Shown piece by piece: positions 3,795-21,181 of a stretch of DNA of 64,000 nucleotides. Positions within the stretch are counted from its first letter, which is position 1. Every line of letters starts with the position of its first letter. A program made the translations under genes and the position numbers. The DNA is from Bacteroides cellulosilyticus DSM 14838. GTDB lineage: Bacteria > Bacteroidota > Bacteroidia > Bacteroidales > Bacteroidaceae. A model generated the notes under the pieces. The model did not search any database. It worked only from the letters and a program-made list of their open reading frames with translations, and had not been told where the DNA came from. The stretch covers positions 2,020,278 through 2,084,277 of the forward strand of contig NZ_EQ973490.1 in the NCBI RefSeq assembly GCF_000158035.1, written 5' to 3'.

Positions 3795-3839
3795 CTCTTA
3801 CCGGAACAAAGAGTATAACTTTATAAAAAAGAATGAAAA

Positions 3840-4532
3840 ATGAAAGAATGGAAAGATGATAAGACTCTGATAACCTTGATAAAAGCCGAACTCTACACGG
3901 CAGTTATCGGAGATATTATGGATAAGATGGGATATCTCCATCAGTTTCTCCCCCCTCATATTCGTCCGCTTCGTGATGATATGTTGATAGCCGGACGGGC
4001 TATGACTGTTTTGGAAGCCGACGTACATGACAATTCTGCATCGGGGGGAAATAATCCTCTGTTACAGCGTTCCTTCGGCTTGATGTTGGAGGCATTGGAT
4101 GATTTGAAGGAAGATGAAGTGTATATCTGCTCCGGTTCTTCTCCGGAATATGCTTTGTGGGGAGAATTGATGAGTGCTCGCGCTATGCAATGCAAAGCCG
4201 CAGGAGCTGTTGTAAATGGATACTCACGCGATACCAAAGGTATTTTAGCTTTAGACTTTCCTTGTTTCTCGTATGGTCCTTATGCGCAGGATCAGGCTCC
4301 TCGTGGAAAAGTTATTGATTACCGCGTTCCCATTGAGGTAGACGGGGTTTTGGTCAATGATGGTGATATGCTGATTGGGGATATTGACGGTGTATGTGTG
4401 GTTCCTCGTCGGATAGAAGAAGAGGTTTTTACCCGTGCATTGGAGAAGGCACGTGGTGAACGGATAGTATTGAAGAAAATACAGGAAGGTATGCGGGCAC
4501 GTGATGCTTTTGACAAGTTTGGTATAATGTAG
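3840..4532 (+). CDS. RraA-like protein, probable 2-keto-3-deoxy-aldonate (HMG-type) aldolase
   Basis: A 230-residue cytoplasmic protein of the RraA/4-hydroxy-4-methyl-2-oxoglutarate aldolase family, sometimes misannotated as demethylmenaquinone methyltransferase. RraA proper inhibits RNase E; the aldolases of this fold need an Arg-Asp pair that holds substrate and divalent metal. That pair is present as Arg130-Asp131 in GYSRDTKGI, with the upstream WGELMSARA loop. It is the first gene of a run that supplies a sugar dehydrogenase, lactonase and dehydratase. The likely job is therefore cleavage of a 2-keto-3-deoxy acid to pyruvate and an aldehyde. That assignment is inference from active-site residues and neighbours. 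Confidence 0.85.
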   Translation: MKEWKDDKTLITLIKAELYTAVIGDIMDKMGYLHQFLPPHIRPLRDDMLIAGRAMTVLEADVHDNSASGGNNPLLQRSFGLMLEALDDLKEDEVYICSGSSPEYALWGELMSARAMQCKAAGAVVNGYSRDTKGILALDFPCFSYGPYAQDQAPRGKVIDYRVPIEVDGVLVNDGDMLIGDIDGVCVVPRRIEEEVFTRALEKARGERIVLKKIQEGMRARDAFDKFGIM

Positions 4533-4551
4533 ATTTAATTTGAGTTTGAAG

Positions 4552-5721
4552 ATGAAGATAACTGATGTAAAGGTGTGGTTGGTGCAAGGCATCAAATACA
4601 ATTGGACATTATTAAAGATTTATACGGATGCTGGTTATACGGGAGTAGGTGAAGCTACCAACTGGCCGGGTAGCCCTGTCGTTTATGAAGCTGTTAAGCA
4701 TGTTGGACAGCGTATAATAGGTCTAGATCCGATGAGAACGGATTTTATTTGGACGAAACTGTATCGTGACTTGAATTGGATAGGCCCGTATGGTGCGAGT
4801 ATGTGTGCTATTAGTGGTATTGATATGGCTTTGTTGGATTTGAAGGGTAAGGTATTGAATGCTCCCTGCTATGAATTGCTGGGAGGAGCATATCGTAAAG
4901 ATATTCTTCTGTATGCAAATTATTGGTTTACAAAAGGTAAACATAATGAGGAGGACTATGCTGCCCAGGCACGGATCGTAAAAGAGGCTGGTTTTACCGG
5001 TTTGAAGTTTGATCCGTTTGCGCATACAAACTATTTTTATGGTGAGGATTTGGCTTCTAATCTGACATTGACCCCTGCACAACAAGATTTGGCATTCAAT
5101 GTATCTAAAGCTGTGCGGGAGGCTGTGGGTCCTGAGATGGATATTATGATAGAGACACATGCCATGTTGAACTACCGTATTGCCGTGAAAATGGCGGAAC
5201 GTTTGGCTAAGTTGGATATCACTTGGTATGAAGAACCGGCAGGTCCTGAGAGTTCACAAACTTTGCGGGCTATGCGTGAGCGTATTCCCTCAGATGTGAC
5301 TATTTGTGTGGGCGAACGGCACTATACGCGATTTGGTATCCGTTCGTTACTTGAGAAACATGTCTGTGATATTATTATGCCGGACATAACCCGTTGTGGT
5401 GGTCCTTCTGAAATGAAGCGGATGGCTACCATGGCTGAGGCTTATAATGTATTGATCGCTCCACATAATCCTAATGGGCCATTGTCTACATTGGCCTCGT
5501 CGCATGTTTGTGCCGCCATTCCTAATTTTTTCAGGCAGGAATTTATGTTTAATGATGTGGCTTGGAGGGATACAGTTATTGATCATCCCATTTCGGAAAT
5601 GGTGTATGACGGGTATCTGCATCTGTCTGACAGACCCGGTTTGGGAGTAGATTTGGTTGAAGATGAATTGGAGAAACATACCGGTATCGTAGCCGATGCT
5701 CCTGATAATTTTTATATTTGA
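4552..5721 (+). CDS. Enolase-superfamily (mandelate racemase group) sugar-acid dehydratase
   Basis: A 389-residue enzyme with the N-terminal capping domain (ITDVKVWLVQG...) and C-terminal barrel of the mandelate racemase/muconate lactonizing family. Visible active-site residues are Lys152 in GLKFDPF; metal ligands Glu201 (MIETHA), Glu227 (WYEEP) and Glu255 (CVGER); and a His305-Asp278 dyad (PHNPNG, MPDITRCGG). The dyad spacing equals the 27 residues seen in mandelate racemase. This set is typical of aldonate dehydratases such as those for galactonate, gluconate or fuconate. I chose ATG 4552 over the in-frame TTG at 4540. It lies 19 nt after the aldolase gene. The substrate is not determined, and racemase activity cannot be excluded. 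Confidence 0.9.
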   Translation: MKITDVKVWLVQGIKYNWTLLKIYTDAGYTGVGEATNWPGSPVVYEAVKHVGQRIIGLDPMRTDFIWTKLYRDLNWIGPYGASMCAISGIDMALLDLKGKVLNAPCYELLGGAYRKDILLYANYWFTKGKHNEEDYAAQARIVKEAGFTGLKFDPFAHTNYFYGEDLASNLTLTPAQQDLAFNVSKAVREAVGPEMDIMIETHAMLNYRIAVKMAERLAKLDITWYEEPAGPESSQTLRAMRERIPSDVTICVGERHYTRFGIRSLLEKHVCDIIMPDITRCGGPSEMKRMATMAEAYNVLIAPHNPNGPLSTLASSHVCAAIPNFFRQEFMFNDVAWRDTVIDHPISEMVYDGYLHLSDRPGLGVDLVEDELEKHTGIVADAPDNFYI

Positions 5722-5727
5722 TAAGAT

Positions 5728-6519
5728 ATGGCATTTACTATTGACTTAAAAGAAAAAGTCGTACTGGTTACCGGTGTATCTTCTGGCATTGGTTTAGGTG
5801 TTGCACGCGAATTTGCTCGTGCGGGTGCTGATGTGGCGGGTTGTTCACGTAAGGCGGCAAATGATGAAAGTATAGTTACTTATGTGGAGGCTGTAGAAAG
5901 TGAGGGGAGTCGGGGGCTTTATGTGCAGGCAGATGTTACAAAAGAGCAGGATTTGGAACAGTTGGTTAGAAAGGTGATTGATACATTTGGCAGGCTGGAT
6001 ATTCTTGTGTCCAATGCCGGGATGAATGTTTTTGAGGGCGCAGAACATTGTGATGAAGAGCATTGGAGATATAATCTTGATTTGAATCTGGCTTCACATT
6101 GGCGCTTGGCAAAACTTTGCAGGCCCTATTTGAAACAAACGAAAGAGGGGGTTATTTTGCTAATGACTTCAAACCATGCGTTTTGTACAATTCCTGGATG
6201 TTTTCCTTACAATGTCACGAAGACGGCTATAACGGGCTTAGTACACAGCTTGGCTATAGAATGGGGACCTGAGATACGGACAGTGGGTGTAGCACCGGGG
6301 TTTATCGATACGGCAGGAAATGACACTTGGTTCAATTCTTTTCCTGATGCAAATGCCGAACGTCAGCGTACGGTTGATCATCATCCGGTAAAGAAACTTG
6401 GTACGGCAGAAGAGGTTGGTGCTTTATGTGTCTATCTGGCTTCCCCGATAGCTTGTTTTATTAGTGGAACCACTGTACTGATGGATGGAGGCCGTTCGGC
6501 ATTGATGCAGGATTTTTAA
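5728..6519 (+). CDS. SDR family NAD(P)-dependent sugar dehydrogenase (probable)
   Basis: A 263-residue classical short-chain dehydrogenase/reductase. The nucleotide-binding motif TGVSSGIG is at residues 15-22, the NAG motif at about residue 97, and the catalytic Ser (LMTSNHAF) and Tyr-x-x-x-Lys (YNVTK) near residues 147-164. The C-terminal ISGTTVLMDGG is typical of the family. The gene begins only 6 nt after the dehydratase and is followed by an SMP-30-type lactonase. It is therefore best read as the enzyme that oxidises the free sugar to its lactone. It could instead act on a later keto-acid intermediate, as in the diketo branch of L-fucose oxidation. Confidence 0.92.
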   Translation: MAFTIDLKEKVVLVTGVSSGIGLGVAREFARAGADVAGCSRKAANDESIVTYVEAVESEGSRGLYVQADVTKEQDLEQLVRKVIDTFGRLDILVSNAGMNVFEGAEHCDEEHWRYNLDLNLASHWRLAKLCRPYLKQTKEGVILLMTSNHAFCTIPGCFPYNVTKTAITGLVHSLAIEWGPEIRTVGVAPGFIDTAGNDTWFNSFPDANAERQRTVDHHPVKKLGTAEEVGALCVYLASPIACFISGTTVLMDGGRSALMQDF

Positions 6520-6535
6520 TAATGAAAGAATCAAC

Positions 6536-7420
6536 ATGAAAGCGAATCTACTATATCGTTGTTATGACACGATTGGAGAGGCTGTTACTTGGCTTCCGGA
6601 TATGAAAACTTTGTTGTGGGTTGATATTGACAGTGGTATCCTGCATCAGTATAATCTGGAGAGCCAGAAGATGGAAGAACACCAATTTCCCGAAATGATA
6701 ACTGCTGTCATTCCCTGGAAAGGGCATGAGCATGAAATCATTTTGGCAATGAAGAATCGTCTGGTTGTTTATCATCTTGTAGAAAGAGAGTATCAGGTGC
6801 TTTTAGAATTGACAGGTCTGCATTCACAGTTGCGCACTAATGATTGTAAAGCGTCTCCGGAGGGTCGTATTTGGTGTGGAGTAATGCATTTGATGGAACA
6901 TACCCGTACCGGAAGCTTGTACTGTATTAATAATGATTTGTCTTGGGTGCCAGTTCTGACTGAGCAATATATTCCAAATGGAATGGTCTGGAATAAGGCT
7001 GGTGACCGGATGTATTACATTGATTCAGGTCGTGGCTGTATCGAAGAATATGGATATAGTTGTTCAGCTAAAATAACCTGGCGACGTACAGTTGTACAAG
7101 TTCCACCGGAATACGGAGTCCCGGATGGAATGACTATCGACGCTGATGGACTTTTATGGGTAGCACATTGGGGAGGATTTGGGGTGTATATATGGGATCC
7201 CGATACTGGAAAGTTAGTAGACAAGGTAGATGTGCCTGCCCCTAATGTCGCTTCTTGCACTTTTGGCGGAATCGGGGATAGCAGGTTGTTCATAACGACA
7301 GCTTTAGACGGGCTTTCTGATATGGAACGTAGAGAATATCCTTTGAGTGGCAGTGTTTTCGTTGTCGATGTACCTAAAGTTGTTCCAGGCGAGAATCATT
7401 ACCCATTTATAACTGATTAA
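6536..7420 (+). CDS. SMP-30/gluconolactonase family sugar lactonase
   Basis: A 294-residue cytoplasmic six-bladed propeller of the SMP-30/LRE family. Family metal-ligand positions are recognisable: Glu15 in IGEAVTW, an Asn in RTNDCKASPEGRIWCG, an Asn in PNGMVWN and an Asp in VPDGMTIDADG. These enzymes open aldonolactones to aldonic acids. The place between a dehydrogenase (17 nt upstream) and a symporter (11 nt downstream), in the same run as an aldonate dehydratase, fits lactone hydrolysis in a non-phosphorylative sugar pathway. No signal peptide is seen. Confidence 0.9.
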   Translation: MKANLLYRCYDTIGEAVTWLPDMKTLLWVDIDSGILHQYNLESQKMEEHQFPEMITAVIPWKGHEHEIILAMKNRLVVYHLVEREYQVLLELTGLHSQLRTNDCKASPEGRIWCGVMHLMEHTRTGSLYCINNDLSWVPVLTEQYIPNGMVWNKAGDRMYYIDSGRGCIEEYGYSCSAKITWRRTVVQVPPEYGVPDGMTIDADGLLWVAHWGGFGVYIWDPDTGKLVDKVDVPAPNVASCTFGGIGDSRLFITTALDGLSDMERREYPLSGSVFVVDVPKVVPGENHYPFITD

Positions 7421-7430
7421 TTGAAAAATT

Positions 7431-8990
7431 ATGCATATCTCTGTTATTGATTTGATTATCTTTTTTGCCTACTGTTTATTGATTTTATTTGTAGGACTCT
7501 TTGTTTCCCGTAGAAACAAAAAAGAAACACAGAGTGCAAAAGGATATTTTTTGGCGGGAAGAGGACTGGCTTGGTGGGCAATCGGTGCTTCTATTATTGC
7601 TTCGAATATTTCGGCTGAACAGTTTGTCGGGATGTCCGGTTCAGGTTATGCTATCGGCTTGGCTATGGCAACTTATGAATGGATTGCTGCACTGGGGCTG
7701 TTGATTGTGGCAAAGTTTTTCATACCGATTTTCCTTGAGAAGAAGATATTTACAATGCCTCAATTTCTGGAAGAACGGTTTGATAGTCGTGTAAAGTCTG
7801 TAATGGCGTTTTTCTGGCTGGTTGTTTTTGTGTTTATTAATCTGACTTCCATTCTTTATCTGGGAGCGCTGACCATTGAGAAGATTATGGGAGTACCCAT
7901 GATTGTGGGAGTGCTGGGATTGGCCATATTTGCAGGAGTCTATTCTATTTATGGCGGATTGAAAGCAGTGGCCTTGACAGATGTGATTCAAGTGGTATTT
8001 TTAATAGGTGGCGGATTAATAACAACTTATATTGCACTGGATACTCTGGGAATGGGGGAAGGAGTAGTACAAGGTTTTAAAAATCTTTATGTACAGACCG
8101 AAGATAAGTTCCATCTTATACTTGACAAGTCTCACCCTAGTTATATGGATCTTCCGGGTATCTCTGTTATTATAGGTGGTTTATGGGTCGCCAATCTCTA
8201 TTATTGGGGGTGTAACCAATATATTATTCAACGTGCCCTGGCGGCTAAATCAGTGAGTGAAGCCCAGAAGGGAATGTTGTTTGCCGGTTTTATCAAGTTG
8301 CTTATTCCATTGCTGGTTGTCATTCCGGGCATTGCGGCTTTTGCTTTGAATGCTCCATTGGAAAAATCAGATGAAGCTTACCCTTGGTTGTTGAGCAATT
8401 TACTCCCCGTAGGCATAAAAGGGGTTGCATTCGCAGCGCTAACAGCGGCTATTGTTAGTTCTTTAGCATCTATGATGAATAGTATAGCTACTATTTTTAC
8501 AATGGATATTTATCGTTCGTATATCCGTCCGCAAGTTGGGGAGGCTGATTTGGTACATGTGGGCCGCTGGACCAGCTTTATATCTTTGGTAATTGCTGTT
8601 ATAATAGCGCCTATGTTATCCGGACTTGATCAGGCATTTCAGTATATTCAAGAATTTACGGGTTTTATCAGTCCGGGTGCATTAGCAATTTTCCTTGCAG
8701 GTTTCTTTTATCGCAAAGCCACAGCCAATGGAGCATTAGCAGCTGCTTTAGGAACCTTTATCTTTTCCCTTTTACTAAAATTCCTTTGTCCGGGGTTGCC
8801 TTGGATGGACAGGATGGGGATTGTCTTTTTGCTTTGCTGCGGATTGATTGTTATGCTGAGAAACCGAACACAAATTGATGTGTCTGCATCTCCGGTACGA
8901 TGGTCACTTTTCCGCACTGGAAAATTATTTAATATTTTGTCTTGTATCATTATTGCCATTCTGATTTATTTCTACTGTTTGTGGTGGTAA
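7431..8990 (+). CDS. Sodium/solute symporter (SSS family), probable sugar transporter
   Basis: A 519-residue inner-membrane protein with about 13-14 hydrophobic helices starting at residue 5. Family features include the GRGLAWWAIGASIIASNISAE stretch in the first core helices and IYGGLKAVALTDVIQ in the middle. SSS proteins import sugars, myo-inositol or sialic acid with Na+. Here it probably brings the periplasmic monosaccharide (or its acid) to the dehydrogenase/lactonase/dehydratase/aldolase set encoded just upstream. It ends the catabolic half of the operon; SusC begins 67 nt later. Confidence 0.93.
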   Translation: MHISVIDLIIFFAYCLLILFVGLFVSRRNKKETQSAKGYFLAGRGLAWWAIGASIIASNISAEQFVGMSGSGYAIGLAMATYEWIAALGLLIVAKFFIPIFLEKKIFTMPQFLEERFDSRVKSVMAFFWLVVFVFINLTSILYLGALTIEKIMGVPMIVGVLGLAIFAGVYSIYGGLKAVALTDVIQVVFLIGGGLITTYIALDTLGMGEGVVQGFKNLYVQTEDKFHLILDKSHPSYMDLPGISVIIGGLWVANLYYWGCNQYIIQRALAAKSVSEAQKGMLFAGFIKLLIPLLVVIPGIAAFALNAPLEKSDEAYPWLLSNLLPVGIKGVAFAALTAAIVSSLASMMNSIATIFTMDIYRSYIRPQVGEADLVHVGRWTSFISLVIAVIIAPMLSGLDQAFQYIQEFTGFISPGALAIFLAGFFYRKATANGALAAALGTFIFSLLLKFLCPGLPWMDRMGIVFLLCCGLIVMLRNRTQIDVSASPVRWSLFRTGKLFNILSCIIIAILIYFYCLWW

Positions 8991-9057
8991 AAAGTAGAAA
9001 GGCATTCTGGGATAAGTCAGATATTTATTTCTTTAAATCTAATAATTGTTTTGTGTT

Positions 9058-12000
9058 ATGAAAAATTATTTATTGACGTTGATTGGATTGCTATTCGCAA
9101 TCGGATTGTCTGCACAGACAGTGAAAGTTACTGGTACAGTTTTGGATGAAGGTAGGCAGCCTTTATTGGGTGTAAGTATTTTTGTGCAATCCAATAGAGC
9201 TCATGGAACTGTAACGGAATTAAATGGTAGGTTTACCATTGATGTAGCGGTAGGAGAGAAGTTGGTTTTCTCTTATATGGGATTTGTGAATAAAACTGTG
9301 CTTATAAACAAAGCTGAACATGATTTGCTTGTCATTATGGAAGAAGATAAGCAGGCTTTGGATGAAGTAGTGGTTATTGGATACGGTACGGCGAAAAAGA
9401 AAGATATAACAGGTGCTATATCTTCCGTATCGGCAGATAAACTGAAGGAAACTCCGGCAGTCAGTCTGAATCAGGCTCTTCAAGGCAAAAGTGCAGGTGT
9501 ACAAGTGCAGTTAAGTGATAATTCTCCCGGTGGAGGTGTCAGTGTGCTTATTCGTGGAAAAGGTTCTATTAATCAGTCAAATGATCCGATTTATGTAGTT
9601 GATGGTATCATTATGGAAGGTACTTTGAATAATATCAATGTCAATGATATTGCCTCTATTGATATTCTGAAGGATGCATCTGCTGCAGCTATTTATGGTT
9701 CAAGAGCAGCCAATGGAGTAGTGATTGTGACAACAAAAAAGGGCGAAGAAGGAAAGGCAAGAGTGTCATTCAGTGCCCGGACCTCATTTCAGTCTCCCTC
9801 CAACTTGCCTAAAATGTTAACGGCACAGGAATTGGCTGAAATCCGTATTGAGGGGAATGTAAACTCACAAATGGATGCAAAATTCTTGGCAAATCCACAA
9901 ATGAGCATAGAAGAATACCGCAGTGAGTTTAATGCCTTGAAGCAACAGTATGCCAAGGAATTACCCACATCTATGTTTTCGGATGTTGAAAGACAAACTT
10001 TACTTGCCGGTGAAACGTATGACTGGTATGATCAAATATCACAAACTGGTGTGGTTCAGGATTATACGGTTTCATTGTCTGGTGGTACAAATAAAACGAA
10101 TTATTATATCAGCGCTAATTATTATGATCAGAAGGGTATTATTCAGGGAACAGGACATAGGCGTTTTAGTTTTCGTGTAAATCTGGAACAGCAAATAAAG
10201 TCTTGGCTAAAAGTAGGGGTTAATTCAAGCTATTATGATGGCGCAACTACTTATGGAGGAGCTAATATTGGAAATGGATTAGGTGCAAATCCGATGTACC
10301 CGTTTGAGATAGATGGTAAAGCGCCTTTGGAGTTACCTTACTATACGAATCCCGGACAAAGTAATCCGGTCTTATCCAAACAGATAGATAATGATGCAAA
10401 GTCCAACCGTTTTTCTATGAATGCATATTTAAAGATAGATATTACAAAAGATTTATTTTTAAAGAGTAGCGTGTCTTTGGATCAGGTGAATAATTTTTCT
10501 GGATATTTCGCTCCTTCAAACATAAAACAGGGGCAAAGCGTGAAAGGTGAAGCACAAATAAAGAATAACAGATGGACTGACGTTATGCAGGAAAATTCAC
10601 TGAACTATTCTAAGTTGTTCCAAGAGGTACATAGGGTGAATGTGATGTTGGGCAACACTGTTCAGGTAAATAATTATTTTGGTAATACGCAATATGGGAA
10701 TGGGTTCGCTACGAATGTAATGGGATATAATAATATCAGTTCGGCATCTGAATTTCCGGCGGGAAAGCAATCTTCCAGTAAAACCAGATGGGCCTTGGCT
10801 TCTTTTATCGGTCGATTGAATTATGCTTATAAGGATAATTATATTTTTACTTTTACAGGACGTTATGATGGTAATTCCCGCTATGCTGAGGGACATAAAT
10901 GGGGCTTTTTCCCGTCAGTAGCCGGTGCTTGGCGTATTTCCGGAGAAAGGTTTATGGAAAAGGCGCATTGGCTTGATGATCTGAAATTACGTTTTGGTTG
11001 GGGACAACTGGGTAATAGTAATGTAGCGCTTTATTCATCGTTTACTAAATTATCCCCCGGAATCACAGTCGATTACCAAGGAAATTCGGTAAATACCATC
11101 CAAAATTCAGATCAGTTTATGGGTAATAAGGATTTGCGTTGGGAACGTCAGGAACAGATCAATGCAGGGGTTGATTTAGCGGCTTTTAATAACCGTTTGC
11201 GTTTTACTCTGGATGTGTATAAGAAAAACAGTAAGGATTTGGTTTTGCAAACTCCTTTACCGGTGACTACCGGTTATCTGAACATTTATTCTAATGTGGG
11301 TGAATTGGAAAACAAAGGTATCGAAATTTCTTTGGGAGGACGAATCATTGCTACCAAGGACTTTTCCTGGGATTTGGATGTAAATTGGGCAACTAACAAA
11401 AATAAATTGAAGTCCTTGTATGGAGGTATCAAGGAAAGGATGAACGACGCATCTAATCCATTAAATGCCGGTTGGTGGGTAGGAAAGCCTCTGGGTACGA
11501 TATATACCTATCGATATGAAGGTATTTGGCAATGGGATGATGATAGGGTTCTAATGGATAAAATGAAAGATGGTCGCGAAGGTGGTGATACTTATTATCC
11601 TGGTGAAAACAAAATTGCTGATTTGGACGGAGATGGACAGATAACAACTAATGATAGGGAAATTGTTGGTTATACTGATCCGAAGGGGTATGGAGGGATA
11701 TCCACTACTTTGAATTATAAGAATTGGACTTTGAATGTAATATTCAATTATGTGTATGGTAATGATGTTTTCAACAGATCTTATCATGAATATACGCTGG
11801 GTGCAGGCTATGGAACTCTGAACATGTTCAATGATGAACTGAATCGTTGGAGTGTTAATAATACAAGTGGTTCCATACCGAGAGCTCATTCCAATAATCT
11901 GGATAGAATGTTGATATCCAGTAGAGTTATGCAGGATGGTTCTTACCTGCGTATGAAGAATGTGACATTGAACTATCAGTTCCCTCTGAAGTGGATTAAC

Positions 12001-12159
12001 AAGGTGGGATTGAGTAATCTGAATCTTTATGTTTCAGGAGAGAATTTGCTGACATGGACAGGGTTTAAGGGAGCCGATCCGGAATCCGTAGGTACGGGTT
12101 ATGATGAGACTTATCCGAACGCACGTTCTTTCACTTTGGGATTAAATGTTAGTTTTTAA
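9058..12159 (+). CDS. SusC-like TonB-dependent outer-membrane transporter
   Basis: A 1033-residue SusC/RagA family protein that imports oligosaccharides across the outer membrane together with its SusD partner. After the signal peptide (ending LSAQ) come a carboxypeptidase-regulatory-like domain (VKVTGTVLDEGRQPLLGVSI), the TonB box region (LDEVVVIGYGTAKKKD), the plug (ISSVSADKLKETPAVSLN..., GAAIYGSRAANGVVIVTTK type motif) and a 22-stranded barrel ending FTLGLNVSF. I chose ATG 9058, not the upstream TTG at 9046, because it starts the signal peptide. SusD follows at 26 nt. Confidence 0.97.
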   Translation: MKNYLLTLIGLLFAIGLSAQTVKVTGTVLDEGRQPLLGVSIFVQSNRAHGTVTELNGRFTIDVAVGEKLVFSYMGFVNKTVLINKAEHDLLVIMEEDKQALDEVVVIGYGTAKKKDITGAISSVSADKLKETPAVSLNQALQGKSAGVQVQLSDNSPGGGVSVLIRGKGSINQSNDPIYVVDGIIMEGTLNNINVNDIASIDILKDASAAAIYGSRAANGVVIVTTKKGEEGKARVSFSARTSFQSPSNLPKMLTAQELAEIRIEGNVNSQMDAKFLANPQMSIEEYRSEFNALKQQYAKELPTSMFSDVERQTLLAGETYDWYDQISQTGVVQDYTVSLSGGTNKTNYYISANYYDQKGIIQGTGHRRFSFRVNLEQQIKSWLKVGVNSSYYDGATTYGGANIGNGLGANPMYPFEIDGKAPLELPYYTNPGQSNPVLSKQIDNDAKSNRFSMNAYLKIDITKDLFLKSSVSLDQVNNFSGYFAPSNIKQGQSVKGEAQIKNNRWTDVMQENSLNYSKLFQEVHRVNVMLGNTVQVNNYFGNTQYGNGFATNVMGYNNISSASEFPAGKQSSSKTRWALASFIGRLNYAYKDNYIFTFTGRYDGNSRYAEGHKWGFFPSVAGAWRISGERFMEKAHWLDDLKLRFGWGQLGNSNVALYSSFTKLSPGITVDYQGNSVNTIQNSDQFMGNKDLRWERQEQINAGVDLAAFNNRLRFTLDVYKKNSKDLVLQTPLPVTTGYLNIYSNVGELENKGIEISLGGRIIATKDFSWDLDVNWATNKNKLKSLYGGIKERMNDASNPLNAGWWVGKPLGTIYTYRYEGIWQWDDDRVLMDKMKDGREGGDTYYPGENKIADLDGDGQITTNDREIVGYTDPKGYGGISTTLNYKNWTLNVIFNYVYGNDVFNRSYHEYTLGAGYGTLNMFNDELNRWSVNNTSGSIPRAHSNNLDRMLISSRVMQDGSYLRMKNVTLNYQFPLKWINKVGLSNLNLYVSGENLLTWTGFKGADPESVGTGYDETYPNARSFTLGLNVSF

Positions 12160-12184
12160 GGTTGTACAAATAAAAATACGAAGT

Positions 12185-13666
12185 ATGAAAAAGATATATA
12201 TATATGCATTGGCTGGAGTTTTAGCTTTATCTTCATGCGATGAGTTTTTAAGAGAGGAACCGGAAGATTTCATGTCTGCTGAATCTGAAGACGTAGATGA
12301 GGCATTGATTGAGGCAGAAATACAGGGAGCTTATAAGTCTACTTTGTGGTTTAAAAATGGACGTCAGGGGTTTATTGGGATAACCGGTACGGATGAGGCC
12401 AGAGGAAAAACGGTGGAAGTTAACTATTGGGCTGAACAAGGAGCGATAGACCGCTACAACACGTCATTGAATGCTGACAATTGGTTGACGAAATGGTTGT
12501 GGGACTCCGGTTATTTCGGTATATCACGTTCCAATACAGCAATTAATGCTGTACGTAACTATACAGGCAGTACGGAGGAATGGAGGCTTAGTAAAGAAGC
12601 TGAGGCGCGCTTTGTCCGTGCATTCGATTATTTTATGTTGGTACAGAACTTTGGTGGTGTTCCCTTGATTACTGAGGAAACGGTTCTTTCTGCCACTCCT
12701 AATTATCCACGGATTGATAAGGCTGAAATTTATAAATATATAATCCAGGACTTAGAATTTTGCGAATCACACCTAAAGACAGATTATCGTGCAGGACGAC
12801 CTACGGTTGGTGCAGCCAAGGCTATGCTGATGAAAGTTTATATGTATGCACCGGAGTCTACCGGCATACGGAGTTATTCTGAAGCAAAACGCCTTTTTGA
12901 GGAAATAGAAGGTTTAGGCGTATATTCTTTGCAACCGTCTTATGCCGATTTATTTAAGCCGGAATTTGAGAATGGTGTGGAATCTGTTTATGAGTTTCAG
13001 TTTGAATATCCGGATGAGCAAAATCAATTTCAATATTTTTGTGGAAGCAGAGCTCTCGACCAGTTTACAGAGGGAGGTGGATTTGGTATATTTCTGCCGA
13101 GTGAGAGGTACTTGGGGTTGTTTGATGATACGGATGAACGGTTTGATGCCAGTGTCCGGACTAAGTTCTATGATAAGAATGGCAATTTGCTGACCTCGGC
13201 GGCCGATCCGGAATATATAGCTCCTCATTGCAAGAAATATGAAGATTATGATCGTGTAATGGATGCCGGAGCCAGCTCGAAAAATATCTATTTTATCCGC
13301 TATGCTGATCTAATCCTGTTATATGCAGAATGTCTTTTGGCGGAGAATGACTTGGCTGGTGCAAAGCAGCAAGTTATCCGTGTCCGTAATCGTGCAAAGG
13401 TTTCCACTCCGATTACAGCCTCAAATAATACAGAAATGCTCGACTTCATTTATGAGGAACGCATGCGTGAATTGGGGATGGAAGGTTGGAGAAGAATGGA
13501 CTTGATACGTCGTGGAGCAGATTATTTTGCTGCGCAAGTTGATAAGTATAATCCGTTTGCGAAGGGAAATGTACAGCCATATCATGCTTTTTATCCAATT
13601 CCAACGAATGAAATTAATATGAATGACGGAATAGGGGCGGAAGATCAGAATGAAGGATATAAATGA
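12185..13666 (+). CDS. SusD/RagB family glycan-binding lipoprotein
   Basis: A 493-residue outer-membrane lipoprotein that caps SusC and captures glycan. A lipoprotein signal (LALSSC, lipidated Cys18) is followed by acidic residues, DEFLREEPEDF, the usual export pattern for surface lipoproteins in Bacteroidota. Then come TPR-like SusD segments (RFVRAFDYFMLVQNFGGVPL) and a C-terminal RMRELGMEGWRRMDLIRRG typical of the family. ATG 12185 is chosen because it begins the signal peptide; an earlier ATG at 12146 overlaps susC and adds 13 unlikely residues. Confidence 0.97.
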   Translation: MKKIYIYALAGVLALSSCDEFLREEPEDFMSAESEDVDEALIEAEIQGAYKSTLWFKNGRQGFIGITGTDEARGKTVEVNYWAEQGAIDRYNTSLNADNWLTKWLWDSGYFGISRSNTAINAVRNYTGSTEEWRLSKEAEARFVRAFDYFMLVQNFGGVPLITEETVLSATPNYPRIDKAEIYKYIIQDLEFCESHLKTDYRAGRPTVGAAKAMLMKVYMYAPESTGIRSYSEAKRLFEEIEGLGVYSLQPSYADLFKPEFENGVESVYEFQFEYPDEQNQFQYFCGSRALDQFTEGGGFGIFLPSERYLGLFDDTDERFDASVRTKFYDKNGNLLTSAADPEYIAPHCKKYEDYDRVMDAGASSKNIYFIRYADLILLYAECLLAENDLAGAKQQVIRVRNRAKVSTPITASNNTEMLDFIYEERMRELGMEGWRRMDLIRRGADYFAAQVDKYNPFAKGNVQPYHAFYPIPTNEINMNDGIGAEDQNEGYK

Positions 13667-13679
13667 AAAAAGTACAACT

Positions 13680-16613
13680 ATGAATAAACTGTTGTTAGGA
13701 TTGATTTTTACAATACTTTTGTGCGCAAGCTGTACCAATAGGGGGATGGTTGCTATAGATAATGGTATTGTAAAGCTGGAATTTGATTTGAAGCAGGGAA
13801 CTTATAAAGGAATTGATGTGGAAACAGGACAAACCTGTATTTACGATGCCTCTTGGCGCGTGAATGATTTTCTTTCTACGGATGCAGACTCCATCTATTA
13901 TCAGATAGAGGCAATTCAGGATTCGTTGGGAAAAGGTCAATCTATACAGGTTGTTTCAGTAAAGAAAGGACAACCGGACTTGGTTTTTAATTTTAATTTG
14001 TATGATCAGGAACCCTTTGTCATAATGTATGGTGGTATCCGTAACGGAACCTCAGAAGGTATACAGATTAAAGAAATATCGCCGGTTGCAAACGCCCGTT
14101 TGTTTTACGGAGCGGATATCTCTAAAAATTTCAAGCTTATAGACGGTGAAGGTGGAGGTTGCCCGACTTATATTCGTGAAACTCCTTCTTTGTTGTCACA
14201 AAACAACATGATACTTCATTTCGGAACTGACGATGACTTTCATACTTTGGTGGGTGGAGGTGCTTCTTATGGAGAGTTTGCCAAGTATGCCTTAATAGGA
14301 GAAAAAGAACAAAGGAAGGCTGACTTGAAGGAACATCCGGTAGAAGACTTGCAGTTGGTTTCTTATATCGATGTAGGAGAAGAGGCTGTTGGCACGGACA
14401 CTGTTCAGCCGTATATTACACTTTCTTCCGGTGCTCCTTATAAGTTTGAGGGAAACATAGCCTACAAAGAGGCAAGGACTGTAGTATGGGCGGACAGGGA
14501 AATAGGCGTTAAGCTGCATAATCTGGATAAAGATAAATCCTACATTGTAGGCTTGTCGTGGTGTGATGATGCGGACAGACGAAAACAGACGGTACATCTC
14601 AAATATGGTGATAAGGAGATAACTTGTATTGAAGATTGTCGGCTGCCTTCTTTGGCAAAAGGAGAGAATGCCCAAATCATTTATTTTGAGATTCCGGCAG
14701 CGGCCAATGAACTGGAACCGCAATTATTGGTGAAACAGGCTGGTGGTGATAATGTTGTGATCAGTGAAGTACTTATTTATGAAGGGAAACTTCCGGAAGA
14801 ACGCTTGAATAAGCCTGAAACGGTTGAAATTCCTGCGGCTGATTTTACCAGGTGCACCCTGAATTTATATGCATCAGATGTTATAGGTAAACTTGTGGAT
14901 GCAAAGTCAGGATATATGACGGAGAAGGACCGGTTCTACTTGGATTTTGTAACTGCCAATCCAATTTATTCTGCTGAAAAGTATGCGCAGACTTTACGGA
15001 TCTTACAGCAAATAAATTTGAATTACTACTATTTTCCGACAATTTGTATGTGGTATGCCATGATGCCTATTTATGGTGGAAATATTGTCATGGGGACAAA
15101 TGATACTGTTGGAGCCGTAGAAGAAATGAAACGTGTAAAACTGAGTGGATTCTTAAAATATACTACCATGGGTATTCGTCTTGTACCCGATTGTTATGAT
15201 GAAAACAATGAGAATGGTTGGTGGGATGATGAGCACTGGCGTTTACGTGGGAGCGGACCGCAGGGAGAAAGTATGAAGTTGAAATCAGGTCATTACCGTG
15301 CCCCTTATGATACTTCCAGGAAATGGGCACAAGCTATTTTGGATTTGGGCGGCTTGCCATTTACCTACTTTCAAACGGCGGTTCGCTCGAAAGATTATGC
15401 GGAAGCTTATCCGCAACATATGCTTTTTAATGAATCTTTTCATGAGATTGATACCTTCGACTGGCTGAATAAAAATTATACGACTTATGATTTTACTGAC
15501 ATCGGTTTCTTGGCACACATGCGTGATGTATATCACAATTTGAACGACGCAGGTATCGTCGGTATGATGTTTGATTATCCATATACGGGGTGGCCAGTTT
15601 ATGGCGGGATGGATGACAAATATAGTACAGCAGCCGGTGCTTATCGTACGATTTTTAAATTGGCTTCAGAAGGGTTGGGCAACAAAGCATATATCCACGA
15701 ACGTAATTTGAAGTATGGCTCTGATATTGCATTGGGGTATGTGGCTTCCCAGCGTACCTGGGGAGATACAGATGTCATTACTCCGGAGATGGTAGCTCGA
15801 AGTGGATTACGATGGTATAAAAACCGTGTTGTGGTAAATTATGATATGGATGCAAAGAACTTGTTGAAGGCACAACCGGCAGATTCGGAAGATGGAATAA
15901 ATAAATTGTTGACTATGTCTTATGTGACGGCTTCCCGTTTGCTCTTGGCCAATAGTTTCGGTACATTGGATGCTGAGCACGTATATAAGCTGTCGCGTAT
16001 TTATCCTTTCCATCAGTTTGCAAGGAGTGCCCGCCCTTTGGATGCTTTCACTACTGACTATCCAAGAGTTTATGGCATGAAGCTTACAGATAAATGGAGT
16101 TCGTTGACATTCTTCAATGAAGATGAAGAACATCCTCAAAAGATCAGCATTAAGCTTTCGGGGATAGAAGGACGTGGAGGAGCCGGTTTACATCCCGACA
16201 AGCAATATTATATTTATGATTTCTGGAATGATAAACTGATTGGAACTTTCGGTGGTAATGAAACCCTGGAACAAGAGTTGCGCAAAGGGGAGGCAAGACA
16301 AATGGCTGTTCGTGAAGTGGAAAGTAATCCGCAAGTTTTGTCTACAGACAGACATTTACTGCAAGGACTCCTGGAATTGTCCGAAGTTTTTTGGAATGAA
16401 GAAACGAAGGAATTGACCGGCTATGCTGAGCTGGTGGAGGGTGAATCGATGCATATTACCATAGCAACGAACGGTTGGCAACCCCAGCATTGCACTGTGG
16501 CTGATAATGAAGTGGCATGTTCTTTGGAAAACAATTCTGAGAATCTTGTAAAACTTGTTTTGAAGAGTACGCATGGAGGAAAAGTATCTTGGAAATTCTC
16601 TTTTAAGAAATAG
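13680..16613 (+). CDS. Large secreted lipoprotein resembling clan GH-D glycoside hydrolases, family uncertain
   Basis: A 977-residue protein with an N-terminal lipoprotein-type signal (LLCASC, Cys18). The N-terminal ~250 residues form a beta-rich domain like the supersandwich of GH36-type enzymes. A middle region (about 250-400) looks like a carbohydrate-binding insert. From about 400 on there is a TIM-barrel-like region with YYYFPTICMWYAM and GIVGMMFDYPYTGW, where Asp632 is placed like the clan GH-D nucleophile. I cannot name the family from memory. Its position between SusD (14 nt) and GH97 (45 nt) supports a role in breaking down the imported glycan. I start it at ATG 13680, because upstream residues from 13650 overlap susD and precede the signal peptide. 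Confidence 0.75.
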   Translation: MNKLLLGLIFTILLCASCTNRGMVAIDNGIVKLEFDLKQGTYKGIDVETGQTCIYDASWRVNDFLSTDADSIYYQIEAIQDSLGKGQSIQVVSVKKGQPDLVFNFNLYDQEPFVIMYGGIRNGTSEGIQIKEISPVANARLFYGADISKNFKLIDGEGGGCPTYIRETPSLLSQNNMILHFGTDDDFHTLVGGGASYGEFAKYALIGEKEQRKADLKEHPVEDLQLVSYIDVGEEAVGTDTVQPYITLSSGAPYKFEGNIAYKEARTVVWADREIGVKLHNLDKDKSYIVGLSWCDDADRRKQTVHLKYGDKEITCIEDCRLPSLAKGENAQIIYFEIPAAANELEPQLLVKQAGGDNVVISEVLIYEGKLPEERLNKPETVEIPAADFTRCTLNLYASDVIGKLVDAKSGYMTEKDRFYLDFVTANPIYSAEKYAQTLRILQQINLNYYYFPTICMWYAMMPIYGGNIVMGTNDTVGAVEEMKRVKLSGFLKYTTMGIRLVPDCYDENNENGWWDDEHWRLRGSGPQGESMKLKSGHYRAPYDTSRKWAQAILDLGGLPFTYFQTAVRSKDYAEAYPQHMLFNESFHEIDTFDWLNKNYTTYDFTDIGFLAHMRDVYHNLNDAGIVGMMFDYPYTGWPVYGGMDDKYSTAAGAYRTIFKLASEGLGNKAYIHERNLKYGSDIALGYVASQRTWGDTDVITPEMVARSGLRWYKNRVVVNYDMDAKNLLKAQPADSEDGINKLLTMSYVTASRLLLANSFGTLDAEHVYKLSRIYPFHQFARSARPLDAFTTDYPRVYGMKLTDKWSSLTFFNEDEEHPQKISIKLSGIEGRGGAGLHPDKQYYIYDFWNDKLIGTFGGNETLEQELRKGEARQMAVREVESNPQVLSTDRHLLQGLLELSEVFWNEETKELTGYAELVEGESMHITIATNGWQPQHCTVADNEVACSLENNSENLVKLVLKSTHGGKVSWKFSFKK

Positions 16614-16658
16614 TTTGTAGAATTTATAAAGTATCTGATAAATTAAAAATACGAAAAA

Positions 16659-18518
16659 ATGAAATATACTGCAATTATATGGGGAGTATTGTTGTTCCTA
16701 TGTTCTGCTTGTGGACAGAAAACAGAAGTAACTTCGCCCGATGGCAGGAACAAACTGATGTTGATGTTGGATGAATCCGGTTCATTATATTATCAGATTT
16801 TTTCCGGTGGGAATGAAATTGTTCGCAGCTCGCTGATGGGGGTGGTTGCGGAGAATGGTAAATATTGTTTTGACAGTGGATTGGTGTATGTGGATCAAAC
16901 GGGATGGACTATCAATGAAACATATACTTTGCCCACGGGGAAACGCTCTGAATATGTGAATAAGTCAAATGAAAGAACGTTCGTCTATAAAAACGCCGCC
17001 GGGCAGTTATTGAAGGTCGTTTGCCGTGCTTATGATGACGGGGTTGCATTCCGTTACGAACTGGGCAATCAGGAGCCGGTAACCATTCGGCATGAACTGA
17101 CAGAGTGTACTTTGTCGGATGAAACCCATACTTGGATGATGGACTGGATTAAGGATTATGAGAATTTCTACCCGGAACGTGTACTTGATACTATTACGAG
17201 ACCTACAGAGTTTCTGTTTCCCGTCCTTACATTACAGGATAAGCAGTGGATGTTGATGACGGAAGCTGAAGTGTATTCCATGCCAGCCATGCACTTGTCA
17301 AAGGAACCAAAATCTGCTACATTTCATTATGTGTATGCACCTGAAGATTCGGCATTTGTGGCTGAACCTTCTTTTAAGACTTCATGGAAGACTTTTATTA
17401 TGGGCCAAAATATAGGTGATATTGTAGAATCCTCATTGGTTGAGAATCTGAATCCTTCTACAGATTTCTCTGATATGGATTGGATAAAGCCGGGAGTTGC
17501 GGCTTTCCCTTGGTGGGGGAATTATTTGGCAAACAGTTATATCGATACTCTAAAAATGTATGTTGACCTGGCAGCCGAGATGAAGTGGGAGTGGTTGGAA
17601 TTTGATGTTTCACTAATCAATACTCCGTTCCATTCTTCAAAGGAATGGGAGGATGTGACCTGGATACCGGAATTGACTGCTTATGCAAGGGAGAAAAACA
17701 TTCTTGTATATGGGTGGGATGAGATGAAGGTGTTGGACAATAAGGCGGGACGTGATTTTGTTTTCGACCGATATAAAGAAATGGGCTTGGATGGAATAAA
17801 GATTGATTATATCGATTCTGATTCAAAATATGCAATGATGTTCCGCGATACAGCTTGTGCTGAAGCTGCCAAACGTAAAATGATGGTGAGCTTTCATGGA
17901 GAGACTTTGCCGCGGGGACATCGCAGACGTTACCCTAATATCATGACTAATGAAGGAGTGCGAGGAGCTGAATATTATACCTTCAAGGGGGCCCAATCAC
18001 CTGATAGCCGCCATAATTGTACTTTACCTTTTACACGTAATGTGGTTGGATCTATGGACTACACTCCCGTGACCTTTACTATCCGTGATGAGAATCCGCG
18101 TACAACAACGTATGCTCATGAGTTGGCTTTGGCATTTGCCTTTGAATCCGGATGGATTTGTATGGCAGACAGGCCGGCCGCCTATTTGAATTCTCCAGCT
18201 CGTCCTTTGCTTGAAAAGATTGAGGCAGCTTGGGACCAGATTCATTTCATAGACGGTTTTCCGGGCGAATATTTCTGTGTGGCTCGATGCAAAGCGGGGA
18301 AATGGTTTGTTGCGGGAATTAACGGCGGACAAAAACGTAGAATTAAGGTTCCCTTGTCTTTTCTGGATAAAGGTCAACATACCATAACCTTATATGCTGA
18401 CAAGGAAGGGAATGAATTGCATGATGTACGCATTGAAACTTTCCCGGAAATAAGTGAGAAAGAGGTGCTGGAAATAGATGTGTTGCCTCATGGAGGCTTT
18501 GTACTGGATATTGATTAA
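16659..18518 (+). CDS. Glycoside hydrolase family 97, probably a retaining alpha-galactosidase-type member
   Basis: A 619-residue lipoprotein (signal LLFLCSAC) with the N-terminal beta-supersandwich (VTSPDGRNKLML, CRAYDDGVAFRYEL), a central (beta/alpha)8 barrel and a C-terminal all-beta domain. GH97 contains inverting alpha-glucosidases (SusB) and retaining alpha-galactosidases. The retaining group has an Asp nucleophile at the end of strand four. Here GIKIDYIDSDS supplies Asp383, and NIMTNEGVRG supplies Glu432 as acid/base. This points to the retaining, galactosidase-like branch, by inference. The calcium-linked TKGAQSPD-like and MDYTPVTF motifs are present. Confidence 0.92.
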   Translation: MKYTAIIWGVLLFLCSACGQKTEVTSPDGRNKLMLMLDESGSLYYQIFSGGNEIVRSSLMGVVAENGKYCFDSGLVYVDQTGWTINETYTLPTGKRSEYVNKSNERTFVYKNAAGQLLKVVCRAYDDGVAFRYELGNQEPVTIRHELTECTLSDETHTWMMDWIKDYENFYPERVLDTITRPTEFLFPVLTLQDKQWMLMTEAEVYSMPAMHLSKEPKSATFHYVYAPEDSAFVAEPSFKTSWKTFIMGQNIGDIVESSLVENLNPSTDFSDMDWIKPGVAAFPWWGNYLANSYIDTLKMYVDLAAEMKWEWLEFDVSLINTPFHSSKEWEDVTWIPELTAYAREKNILVYGWDEMKVLDNKAGRDFVFDRYKEMGLDGIKIDYIDSDSKYAMMFRDTACAEAAKRKMMVSFHGETLPRGHRRRYPNIMTNEGVRGAEYYTFKGAQSPDSRHNCTLPFTRNVVGSMDYTPVTFTIRDENPRTTTYAHELALAFAFESGWICMADRPAAYLNSPARPLLEKIEAAWDQIHFIDGFPGEYFCVARCKAGKWFVAGINGGQKRRIKVPLSFLDKGQHTITLYADKEGNELHDVRIETFPEISEKEVLEIDVLPHGGFVLDID

Positions 18519-18530
18519 AAAAACAACCAC

Positions 18531-20393
18531 ATGATTTTGAGAAATTTATTCGTAACTTTCCTCGCATTTGTTGCGTGGGGGATTCAAACAAATGCTGGTG
18601 AAATACCACGAAAGGAATATCCACGTCCCCAGTTTGAGCGTAAGACATGGCTAAACTTAAATGGAGAATGGGACTATGCCTTTGATTTTACAAATATTGG
18701 GATGGAAAAGGAATTTCATAAAGCTACAACTTTCAGCGGTAAAATAACAGTTCCTTTTCCGCCGGAAAGTAAGTTGTCCGGGGTAGAACATAAAGATTTT
18801 ATCAATCATATTTGGTATCATCGTATCATACGGAGACCGGAAGAATGGGCAGGCAAGAATGTAATACTGAACTTTGGGGCTGTCTATTTTAATTCGGAAA
18901 TCTATATTGATGGAAAATTGGTTGGAAGACATTTCGGAGGTAGCTCTTCTTTTGGTTTCGATATTACCGGATATGTAGAGGATGGGTTAGAACACCATCT
19001 GGTGGTGCGTGCAAGCAGTGATCTAAGATCTATGATGCAAAGTGCTGGTAAGCAGAGTCTTTTGCTGAACTCTCATGGATGCCAATATACGCGTACTACC
19101 GGTATTTGGCAAACTGTATGGCTGGAGGCTGTGGCATCGGCAGGGTTACAGTCTGTTCATGCGCTAACGGATATTGACCAAAAACAGTTGGTTATTCACC
19201 CCCGTTTTTATCGTGACAGTTATAAGAACACATTGCGGATTGTTTTGCAAGAGAATAACAAGAAAATCGGAACAGTATGTGTCAAAGCTGCAAATAGTTC
19301 TGTGGCTGTATTTTCATTGAAGAATGTCAGGTTATGGTCACCGGAATCGCCTTTTCTGTATGATGTCCTGTATCAAGTGTTGGATGAGAATGGAAAGGTG
19401 ATAGATGAGGTGACTTCTTATGTGGGAATGCGGAAGGTCCATATTGAGGGAAATAAGATTTATCTTAATAATAAGCCTTATTATCAGCGTTTGGTACTTG
19501 ATCAAGGATTTTATCCGGACGGTATCTGGACAGCGCCTTCGGATGAGGCCCTGAAAAGAGATATAGAAATCTCGATGGCTGCCGGTTTTAACGGTGCCCG
19601 TCTACATCAGAAGGCTTTTGAAGAACGTTTCTATTATTGGGCCGACAAACTGGGATATATCACTTGGGGGGAAGCACCAAGCTGGGGAATGGATGCAAAC
19701 AGCATTGAGGTTGCACGTAACTTTCTGCAAGAATGGTCGGAGCTTGTTTTGCGCGACCGGAACCACCCGTCTTTATTGATTTGGACGCCGATGAATGAAG
19801 AGTGGTGGCCCGATCACATACAATATCCACGTTTCACAGCAGATTTGTATGATTTGACTAAGTCATTGGATCCCACTCGTCCGGTGAATGATGCCAGCGG
19901 AGGATGTCATATAAAAACAGATATATGGACGGTACATAGCTATGAACAAGATCCGGCTGCTTTGAAGGATGCCTTATATAAAGATGGAGCTTTCTTTCAG
20001 ACACCTAATAATCCGCAAGGAGTGCCATCCGCCAATGTGGGATTTAATGGGCTTGGTGTAGATAGTCCCTATCCTTTTCCGAAATATGAGGGCGATATGC
20101 CCTATTTGATAGATGAAGTAGGTGGTATAAAATGGGTAGAGACGAAAGATAAAAGTAATACAGATAGTTCCTGGGGCTACAGTACACCTCCTGCAACTCA
20201 AGAAGAATTCCTGCAACGTCTTGAATCGCAGATAGATGCTATACTAAGTTTAAAGGAATATGTTTGGGGATATTGTTATACACAATTGACCGATGTAGAG
20301 CAGGAGCAGAACGGCATTTTTTTTTATGATCGCAGGTCCAAGTTTGATTTGAAACTTATTTTCCGTATCTTTTCTAAAACTCCCCGGGAATAA
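18531..20393 (+). CDS. Glycoside hydrolase family 2 enzyme
   Basis: A 620-residue secreted GH2 enzyme (signal peptide ending near TNAGE). The jelly-roll sugar-binding domain (RKTWLNLNGEWDYAFDF) is followed by an immunoglobulin-like domain and the TIM barrel. The acid/base is Glu423 (TPMNEEWW) and the nucleophile Glu529 (LIDEVGG). The barrel entry LDQGFYPDGIWTAPSDE is typical of a GH2 branch found in Bacteroides polysaccharide loci. Beta-galactosidase, beta-glucuronidase or a related activity is possible, and sequence alone does not decide. It is 13 nt after GH97 and is the last gene of the operon. It lacks the C-terminal extra domains of LacZ. Confidence 0.9.
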   Translation: MILRNLFVTFLAFVAWGIQTNAGEIPRKEYPRPQFERKTWLNLNGEWDYAFDFTNIGMEKEFHKATTFSGKITVPFPPESKLSGVEHKDFINHIWYHRIIRRPEEWAGKNVILNFGAVYFNSEIYIDGKLVGRHFGGSSSFGFDITGYVEDGLEHHLVVRASSDLRSMMQSAGKQSLLLNSHGCQYTRTTGIWQTVWLEAVASAGLQSVHALTDIDQKQLVIHPRFYRDSYKNTLRIVLQENNKKIGTVCVKAANSSVAVFSLKNVRLWSPESPFLYDVLYQVLDENGKVIDEVTSYVGMRKVHIEGNKIYLNNKPYYQRLVLDQGFYPDGIWTAPSDEALKRDIEISMAAGFNGARLHQKAFEERFYYWADKLGYITWGEAPSWGMDANSIEVARNFLQEWSELVLRDRNHPSLLIWTPMNEEWWPDHIQYPRFTADLYDLTKSLDPTRPVNDASGGCHIKTDIWTVHSYEQDPAALKDALYKDGAFFQTPNNPQGVPSANVGFNGLGVDSPYPFPKYEGDMPYLIDEVGGIKWVETKDKSNTDSSWGYSTPPATQEEFLQRLESQIDAILSLKEYVWGYCYTQLTDVEQEQNGIFFYDRRSKFDLKLIFRIFSKTPRE

Positions 20394-21149: not shown

Positions 21150-21181
21150 TATCGATGTACAAAATCATTGCTAATACTATT

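Follow-up and report, generated by a model that had tools for sequence, protein, structure and literature searches.

A SusCD operon of Bacteroides cellulosilyticus with a predicted non-phosphorylative sugar oxidation route and an RraA-family candidate aldolase

The window analysed here is a stretch of 64,000 nucleotides (nt) from Bacteroides cellulosilyticus DSM 14838 (contig NZ_EQ973490.1). Between positions 3840 and 20393 its listing of open reading frames (ORFs) holds ten, all on the + strand, in the order RraA-family protein, enolase-superfamily dehydratase, SDR dehydrogenase, SMP-30 lactonase, sodium symporter, SusC, SusD, an unclassified protein, GH97 and GH2. Judged from the sequence, this operon probably joins SusCD uptake and glycosidases to a non-phosphorylative oxidation route of its own, closed by an RraA-family aldolase and serving a sugar most likely of the D-galacto/L-arabino configuration.

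The operon and its conserved cassette

In the proposed pathway, SusC and SusD would import oligosaccharides, from which the secreted GH97, GH2 and unclassified proteins would release a free sugar to be carried into the cytoplasm by the sodium symporter. The SDR enzyme would oxidise the sugar at C1 to a lactone, the SMP-30 protein would open the lactone ring to give the aldonate, and the enolase-superfamily enzyme would dehydrate the latter to a 2-keto-3-deoxy-aldonate. Finally, the RraA-family protein, as a metal-dependent class II aldolase, would cleave this acid, yielding pyruvate together with the aldehyde glyceraldehyde, lactaldehyde or glycolaldehyde. The configuration proposed would fit D-galactose, D-fucose, O-methyl galactose or L-arabinose. 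None of the ten genes encodes a kinase.

The family assignments hold in Pfam and NCBIfam (RraA-like, MR/MLE enolase, SDR, SGL/SMP-30, SSF, SusC, SusD, GH97 and GH2). Adjacent SusC and SusD score above the Pfam cut-offs and are followed by GH97 and GH2, as in a SusCD polysaccharide utilisation locus; aldose dehydrogenase, lactonase and aldonate dehydratase, the set characteristic of non-phosphorylative oxidation, stand together by family assignment, and such gene sets recur in other genomes. The gaps between the longest ORFs are, in order, 7, 6, 16, 10, 55, -14, -17, 45 and 12 nt, and the largest becomes 67 nt with the SusC ATG set at 9058; coordinates and gaps agree with the initial annotation, which had described ten same-strand genes spaced by at most 67 nt. 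The ten genes are presumably transcribed together. An AraC-type regulator (2823-3695), absent from that annotation, is an additional member of the module: homologues scoring above 400 bits lie immediately 5' of RraA in Phocaeicola, Parabacteroides and Dysgonomonas loci.

The oxidative cassette is a genuine module of rare occurrence. Among 37 genomes of the same genus, the RraA-like search returned the window's own genome only, and at 1e-15 it returned 12 of 393 Bacteroidales genomes, among them a match of only 34% identity and another to an incomplete gene. The dehydratase search at 1e-60 returned four of the 393. In each of these the RraA-like gene is close by: next to the dehydratase gene in two, and separated from it by a single GH2 gene in the other two, which are of the same genus. 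At 1e-90, the dehydratase was found in two of 395 phylum genomes, the window's own and one with RraA adjacent, and among 395 class genomes in the window's own only. When public genome contigs were scanned with the RraA-like protein, 59 loci were obtained. The run AraC-RraA-dehydratase-SDR-(lactonase)-symporter was found again in Phocaeicola and Parabacteroides and, in part, on a short Dysgonomonas contig, which answers the suggestion that the same gene order be sought in other Bacteroidota. Sphingobacterium and other Bacteroidota have the cassette in rearranged form, and a Clostridiaceae metagenome-assembled genome (MAG) and a Verrucomicrobiaceae genome have parts of it.

The contents of the 25 loci with an enolase-type dehydratase were counted with a longest-ORF filter, some contigs being cut. 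The SDR gene was present in 20 of the 25 (two more, L025 and L070, by direct reading, and a cut copy in L082), the symporter in 16, the SMP-30 lactonase in 15, a GH2 of two conserved types in 16, SusC in 10 and GH97 in three. Two GH2 genes follow the cassette in the nearest relatives (L017, L018, L025 and L032), whereas in the window SusC/SusD come next, and after them the unclassified protein, GH97 and GH2; by this contrast, the window operon looks like a fusion of the common cassette with a particular glycan-uptake set. In locus L007 (genome G166) the RraA match contains one TAA stop, the dehydratase, SDR and lactonase being retained (L079).

One RraA clade with exchangeable dehydratases

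The best evidence that the RraA-like protein would consume a 2-keto-3-deoxy-aldonate comes from its dehydratase partners. Across 65 classified loci, the dehydratase within 11 kb of the RraA gene is of the enolase type in 25, of the UxuA type (PF03786) in 21 and of the IlvD/EDD type (PF00920) in two, and none was found in 17. Since one RraA partner serves unrelated dehydratases, it may be expected to act on what these share, namely their product. The IlvD type is the weakest of the three, because the L061 protein scores above the genuine ilvD cut-off (668.8 versus 618.15 bits).

Some choices precede this count. L060 was dropped as a presumed near-copy of L058, which a later comparison did not confirm, and L074, L075 and L081 were dropped because their RraA did not pass the ORF filter in full. 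Two entries were set by hand, L020 being included and L070 given the enolase label; L087 (138 aa) was excluded from the tree. L068 was dropped as identical to L066, the same 15,985-base contig being filed under a Synergistales MAG and a Phycisphaerales MAG, likely by cross-binning. On the RraA tree the dehydratase labels are strongly clustered, with 11 changes versus 30.9 in shuffles that leave relatedness uncorrected.

The accessory genes differ between the two main types. SMP-30 lactonases are absent from all 21 UxuA loci, whereas the 7-bladed PF10282 lactonase is found in 13 of these and in none of the 25 enolase loci. GH38 occurs in 13 of the 21 UxuA loci, in no enolase locus and in three loci with no recorded dehydratase, all in one clade; the conserved beta-galactosidase-like GH2 types occur in 16 of the 25 enolase loci versus none of the UxuA loci, and GH97 in three versus one. 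By family assignment, the glycosidases track the dehydratase, GH38 mannosidase going with the mannonate-dehydratase type and GH2/GH97 with the galactonate-dehydratase-like type; a GH97 of 132 bits in the UxuA-type locus L055 runs contrary to a neat split. As a separate observation, 11 UxuA-type loci (L039-L046, L054, L056 and L073) also carry CoA-transferase III genes, with enoyl-CoA hydratase-like genes in those checked, and in 16 loci there is a conserved gene for a product of about 143 aa with no Pfam match, a hint that one product of the pathway has a CoA-linked fate.

The gene-order conservation and the dehydratase swapping together support the dehydrogenase-lactonase-dehydratase-lyase-symporter pathway and its SusCD link, as predicted in the initial annotation, and with them the role of the RraA-like protein as the probable lyase. 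A broader proposal is plausible, although its opposite seems to us somewhat the more probable: the RraA clade (at least 55% identity to the window's protein; Bacteroidota, Bacillota and Verrucomicrobiota) would consist of unrecognised 2-keto-3-deoxy-aldonate aldolases for plug-in pathways, galactose-type (enolase, GH2/GH97) or mannose-type (UxuA, GH38), and the plug-in would have been captured into a SusCD operon for a sugar beyond the kinase routes, such as D-fucose or O-methyl galactose.

Chemistry of the RraA-like protein

The RraA-like protein scores 113.8 bits against PF03737 (cut-off 24.5), 34.3 bits against the RraA equivalog model (cut-off 136) and 59.1 and 65.3 bits against two CHA-aldolase models (cut-offs 304.5 and 179); on sequence grounds it is a member of the HMG/CHA aldolase fold family, yet not that enzyme itself. 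Its structure model (mean pLDDT 90.5, from an alignment of 23 sequences) superposes on HMG/CHA aldolase 3noj with Z 22.8 and 2.3 A over 199 residues, and on short RraA proteins with Z 15.5-17.1 over 153-163 residues. Arg130-Asp131, the motif pointed out from the beginning, is identical in 64 of 64 aligned proteins, and the alignment offset makes R130 probably the counterpart of Arg-123 of HMG/CHA aldolase. In that enzyme the R123K replacement is reported to lower kcat 181-fold, and most homologues bearing the metal-binding motif are considered likely class II pyruvate aldolases (PMC5065237). The earlier remark that an RraA-like protein is not a standard assignment as the aldolase of such a pathway is anticipated in general terms by this published statement; the part that stands is the proposed sugar-acid role, which is apparently new.

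It is very improbable that the protein is instead an RNase regulator or an unrelated passenger, the remaining enzymes making up an incomplete pathway whose product goes to a kinase and an aldolase encoded elsewhere. The Pfam family does include RraA, the aldolase-type NCBIfam models were matched only below cut-off, and Streptomyces RraAS2 is among the best fold matches (5x15, Z 24.5); against this stand the equivalog score, the short span over which the RraA proteins align and the linkage of the gene to three dehydratase types. Regulation of RNase E in particular was considered and is disfavoured by the equivalog score and the gene context, while the fold alone would allow it, 5x15 and YER010Cp ranking above 3noj.

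The RraA family also offers a dehydratase. FlDet, from the alginate user Flavobacterium sp. UMI-01, is a purified RraA-family dehydratase/decarboxylase acting on 2-keto-3-deoxy-D-glucarate (KDGR; PMC8563752). In a variant of Route II built on this precedent, the window's protein would dehydrate a 2-keto-3-deoxy-pentonate (or, with decarboxylation, a keto-deoxy-aldarate) to alpha-ketoglutaric semialdehyde, which would be converted to alpha-ketoglutarate, the substrate being L-arabinose or a hexuronate; the resemblance of the window's GH2 to the alpha-L-arabinofuranosidase group would agree with this. We consider it unlikely. Among the acids tested, FlDet is active on the aldarate-derived acid only (PMC8563752), and the UxuA and GH38 contexts indicate neutral sugars. 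Moreover, a dehydratase would have to be paired with a semialdehyde dehydrogenase, and the PF00171 search of the window's genome returned nothing at E 0.001, with 14 of 14 control genomes positive (the genome being 95.8% complete, this negative is strong, not final); no such enzyme was seen near the cassettes either, by a regular-expression scan run with no positive control. Aldol cleavage by the RraA-like protein is favoured on these grounds as its predicted reaction.

Several points weigh against a pathway that ends in this aldolase. Four chains outrank 3noj in the fold search, namely 5ir2 (labelled a cellulase), 3k4i (uncharacterised), 5x15 and yeast YER010Cp, so the fold by itself is no proof of an aldolase; 5x15, closer than 3noj (Z 24.5 versus 22.8), is described as belonging to an RNase ES inhibitor family. 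The conservation of R-D cannot separate an aldolase from FlDet-type dehydratase/decarboxylase chemistry. FlDet, the sole RraA-family enzyme reported to have been tried on KDG, is inactive on it, as it is on KDPG and DEHU (PMC8563752). The dehydratase switches are few and clade-bound, which leaves few independent events. The 17 loci with no such dehydratase within 11 kb include several cut contigs, and also two, from Anaerolineales (L069) and Oscillospiraceae (L072), whose flanks extend for about 10 kb in each direction. Six enolase loci (L019, L020, L022, L023, L024 and L036) have no SMP-30 lactonase in about 10 kb on each side; the lactonase would therefore be dispensable or encoded elsewhere. 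The operon encodes no enzyme for the product aldehyde. Finally, galK (galactokinase) and araA (L-arabinose isomerase) are in the window's genome, so that galactose and arabinose have normal routes, and the oxidative one would be redundant or would serve a related sugar outside the reach of those two enzymes.

As to known systems, the De Ley-Doudoroff pathway has the same reaction order as the route proposed. The Zobellia carrageenan regulon, with its 3,6-anhydro-D-galactose pathway, is likewise a Bacteroidota SusCD regulon joined to sugar oxidation, and the window dehydratase scores 153 bits against the enolase-superfamily protein 5olc, which we take to be an enzyme of that pathway; this reportedly ends in a kinase and a phosphorylated aldolase, unlike the route of the window. 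The D-galactonate dehydratase DgoD is the closest NCBIfam model to the window dehydratase and presumably has the same catalytic His pattern, but the match is below cut-off and the first metal ligand is Glu205. HMG/CHA aldolase is alike in fold, length and R-D motif; it stands in an aromatic-ring gene setting, whereas the window protein stands among sugar-acid genes. The non-phosphorylative Entner-Doudoroff-type pathways (Route I/Dahms) run in the order dehydrogenase-lactonase-dehydratase-aldolase (PMC9795676, PMC6336799), but their aldolase is described as a member of the DHDPS/NAL family (PMC9795676), whereas here an RraA/HMG-CHA-type protein takes its place and the set has its own SusCD and glycosidases. 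FlDet shares with the window protein the RraA family and, on the present reading, both a 2-keto-3-deoxy sugar acid as substrate and a place in polysaccharide use by Bacteroidota; it differs in chemistry and product, in its semialdehyde dehydrogenase partner and in leaving KDG unused (PMC8563752).

In a literature search over titles and abstract openings, which took in little of the subscription literature, none described an RraA-type aldolase accompanied by these genes; both the assignment of an RraA-type protein to the aldolase step for a sugar acid and its union with SusCD are apparently new. If the protein is an aldolase, a large family named mostly otherwise (RNase regulator; demethylmenaquinone methyltransferase, PDB 1j3l) would gain a sugar-catabolic function open to testing, and the annotation of many loci could be revised. 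If the route holds, Bacteroidales would couple SusCD glycan capture to phosphate-free oxidation, which would change the sugars and products to be expected (pyruvate and a small aldehyde).

The sugar served by the route

The best NCBIfam match of the dehydratase is PRK14017 (D-galactonate dehydratase), with 234.1 bits under an equivalog cut-off of 311. E205, H207, E231, E259, D282 and H309 are identical in 24 of 24 aligned proteins, including the His-Asp dyad of the initial annotation; we take E205, E231 and E259 to be the metal ligands, H207 the acid and H309-D282 the dyad. The residue set of the MR/MLE acid-sugar dehydratases is complete. At the first metal ligand position, Glu205 aligns to Asp in 2qq6 and 2poz, and the second strand carries K156-x-D158, that is, K-x-D instead of K-x-K. 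By the stereochemical rule of the superfamily, His-Asp with K-x-D fits 2R acids (D-galactonate, D-gluconate, L-arabinonate and D-fuconate) and not L-fuconate or L-galactonate. The catalytic residues of the SDR (S148, Y161 and K165) are identical in 20 of 20 aligned proteins and those of the SMP-30 lactonase (E15, N148 and D197) in 14 of 14. The SDR has no PDB match at 1e-40, so its cofactor and sugar are not readable from a relative.

The nearest PDB entries to the GH97 are the alpha-galactosidases 3a24/5e1q. Its Asp383 occupies the nucleophile position of retaining alpha-galactosidases, and its equivalog score is 254.3 bits under a cut-off of 800. The GH2, with an NE motif at residue 422, is nearest to 7xyr (641.1 bits), itself an uncharacterised GH2_19 structure; alpha-L-arabinofuranosides and beta-D-galactofuranosides are described as substrates of GH2_18 and GH2_19 (PMC12243196). 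The conserved GH2 neighbours of other cassettes have NCBIfam scores below cut-off throughout, with beta-galactosidase models on top, and one of them has no PDB match at 1e-60.

Because the glycosidases and the dehydratase resemble galactose- and L-arabinose-type enzymes, D-galactose, D-fucose or L-arabinose would be a likelier substrate than L-fucose or L-galactose, which had been among the sugars first suggested. D-glucose-type substrates are possible, and D-fucose or O-methyl galactose is our guess. An L-arabinonate dehydratase of the IlvD family is reported to prefer D-fuconate over L-arabinonate over D-galactonate (PMC9795676), which indicates that one enzyme can take all three acids.

The same pathway could also be imagined for L-fucose or L-galactose, supplied by the GH95 enzyme downstream, a family that includes alpha-L-fucosidases and alpha-L-galactosidases. 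Three of 25 other cassettes (L018, L032 and L070) do have GH95-type genes nearby; the K156-D158 pair speaks for 2R acids under the stereochemical rule, the window's GH95 is 761 nt away from the operon and, for L-galactose, B. vulgatus has another route (PMC12632266), so that we hold an L-sugar to be quite improbable. The same report qualifies the statement that Bacteroides normally uses isomerase/kinase routes: L-galactose metabolism in B. vulgatus is a published exception (PMC12632266).

Gene map, the unclassified protein and neighbouring features

Table 1. Position and assignment of the operon genes and flanking features in the window
Feature	Coordinates	Strand	Basis
AraC-family regulator, conserved cassette partner	2823..3695	+	Pfam HTH_AraC/HTH_18
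Intergenic region, 144 nt, likely operon promoter	3696..3839	+	TAACTTTG at 3787
RraA-family, class II pyruvate aldolase-like; proposed 2-keto-3-deoxy-aldonate aldolase	3840..4532	+	PF03737, fold match, R130-D131
MR/MLE enolase-superfamily sugar-acid dehydratase, galactonate-dehydratase-like	4540..5721 (ATG probably 4552)	+	PF13378/PF02746
SDR dehydrogenase, proposed aldose 1-dehydrogenase	5728..6519	+	PF13561
SMP-30/gluconolactonase-type lactonase	6536..7420	+	PF08450
SSS-family sodium:solute symporter, probably for sugar	7431..8990	+	PF00474, TIGR00813 above cut-off
SusC-like TonB-dependent transporter	9046..12159 (ATG probably 9058)	+	Pfam Plug, TonB barrel, CarbopepD_reg_2
SusD-like surface glycan-binding protein	12146..13666	+	PF07980, PF14322
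987-aa secreted-looking protein, familyless, putative glycosidase	13650..16613	+	no Pfam/NCBIfam match
GH97, probably of retaining type, alpha-galactosidase-like	16659..18518	+	PF10566/PF14508/PF14509; Asp383 at nucleophile position
GH2, nearest solved relative in GH2_19, NE motif kept	18531..20393	+	Pfam GH2; 7xyr
GH95 enzyme, possible accessory, outside tight operon	21155..23656	+	PF22124; 761 nt downstream

Of the three secreted glycosidases claimed at the outset, GH97 and GH2 stand. For the third, the 987-aa product of 13650-16613, neither Pfam nor NCBIfam gives a family, PDB matches reach E 0.19 at best, and there is no significant similarity to the neighbouring GH97; that it is a glycosidase we infer. 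Its structure prediction (mean pLDDT 46.7, from a five-sequence alignment) is too poor for a fold search. Matches were found in seven of 294 other Bacteroidales genomes, several of them weak (23-32% identity). In three genomes the relatives lie near GH106, GH78-type, GH20 and GH123_N genes, in contexts with no cassette, and the enolase dehydratase is absent from all four tested of the seven matching genomes; the protein therefore looks like a recruit from outside the pathway module. With its relatives (L101-L104) it forms an unclassified family of about 900-1000 aa, a candidate new glycosidase family.

In the region upstream of the operon, the TAACTTTG at 3787 is presumably a Bacteroides -7-like element. 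The strict Bacteroides -33/-7 pattern has five matches in the window versus 1.75 expected, none of them upstream of the operon. A sigma-70-type scan of the window gave 67 sites versus 52.9 (sd 7.2) in shuffles and a scan for terminator-like elements 17 versus 11.9 (sd 3.0); the terminator-like elements listed are all intragenic, with none in the operon gaps.

Inside the 761-nt gap that follows the operon, an inverted repeat lies at 20529-20648, with arms of 20 nt about 80 nt apart and one mismatch to the searched arm. Its arms are the sole matches in the window at up to three mismatches, and the pair may represent a small mobile or regulatory element. Further downstream, four consecutive genes at 31847-36656 resemble, by eye, a PorP/GldK/GldL/GldM set of type IX secretion.

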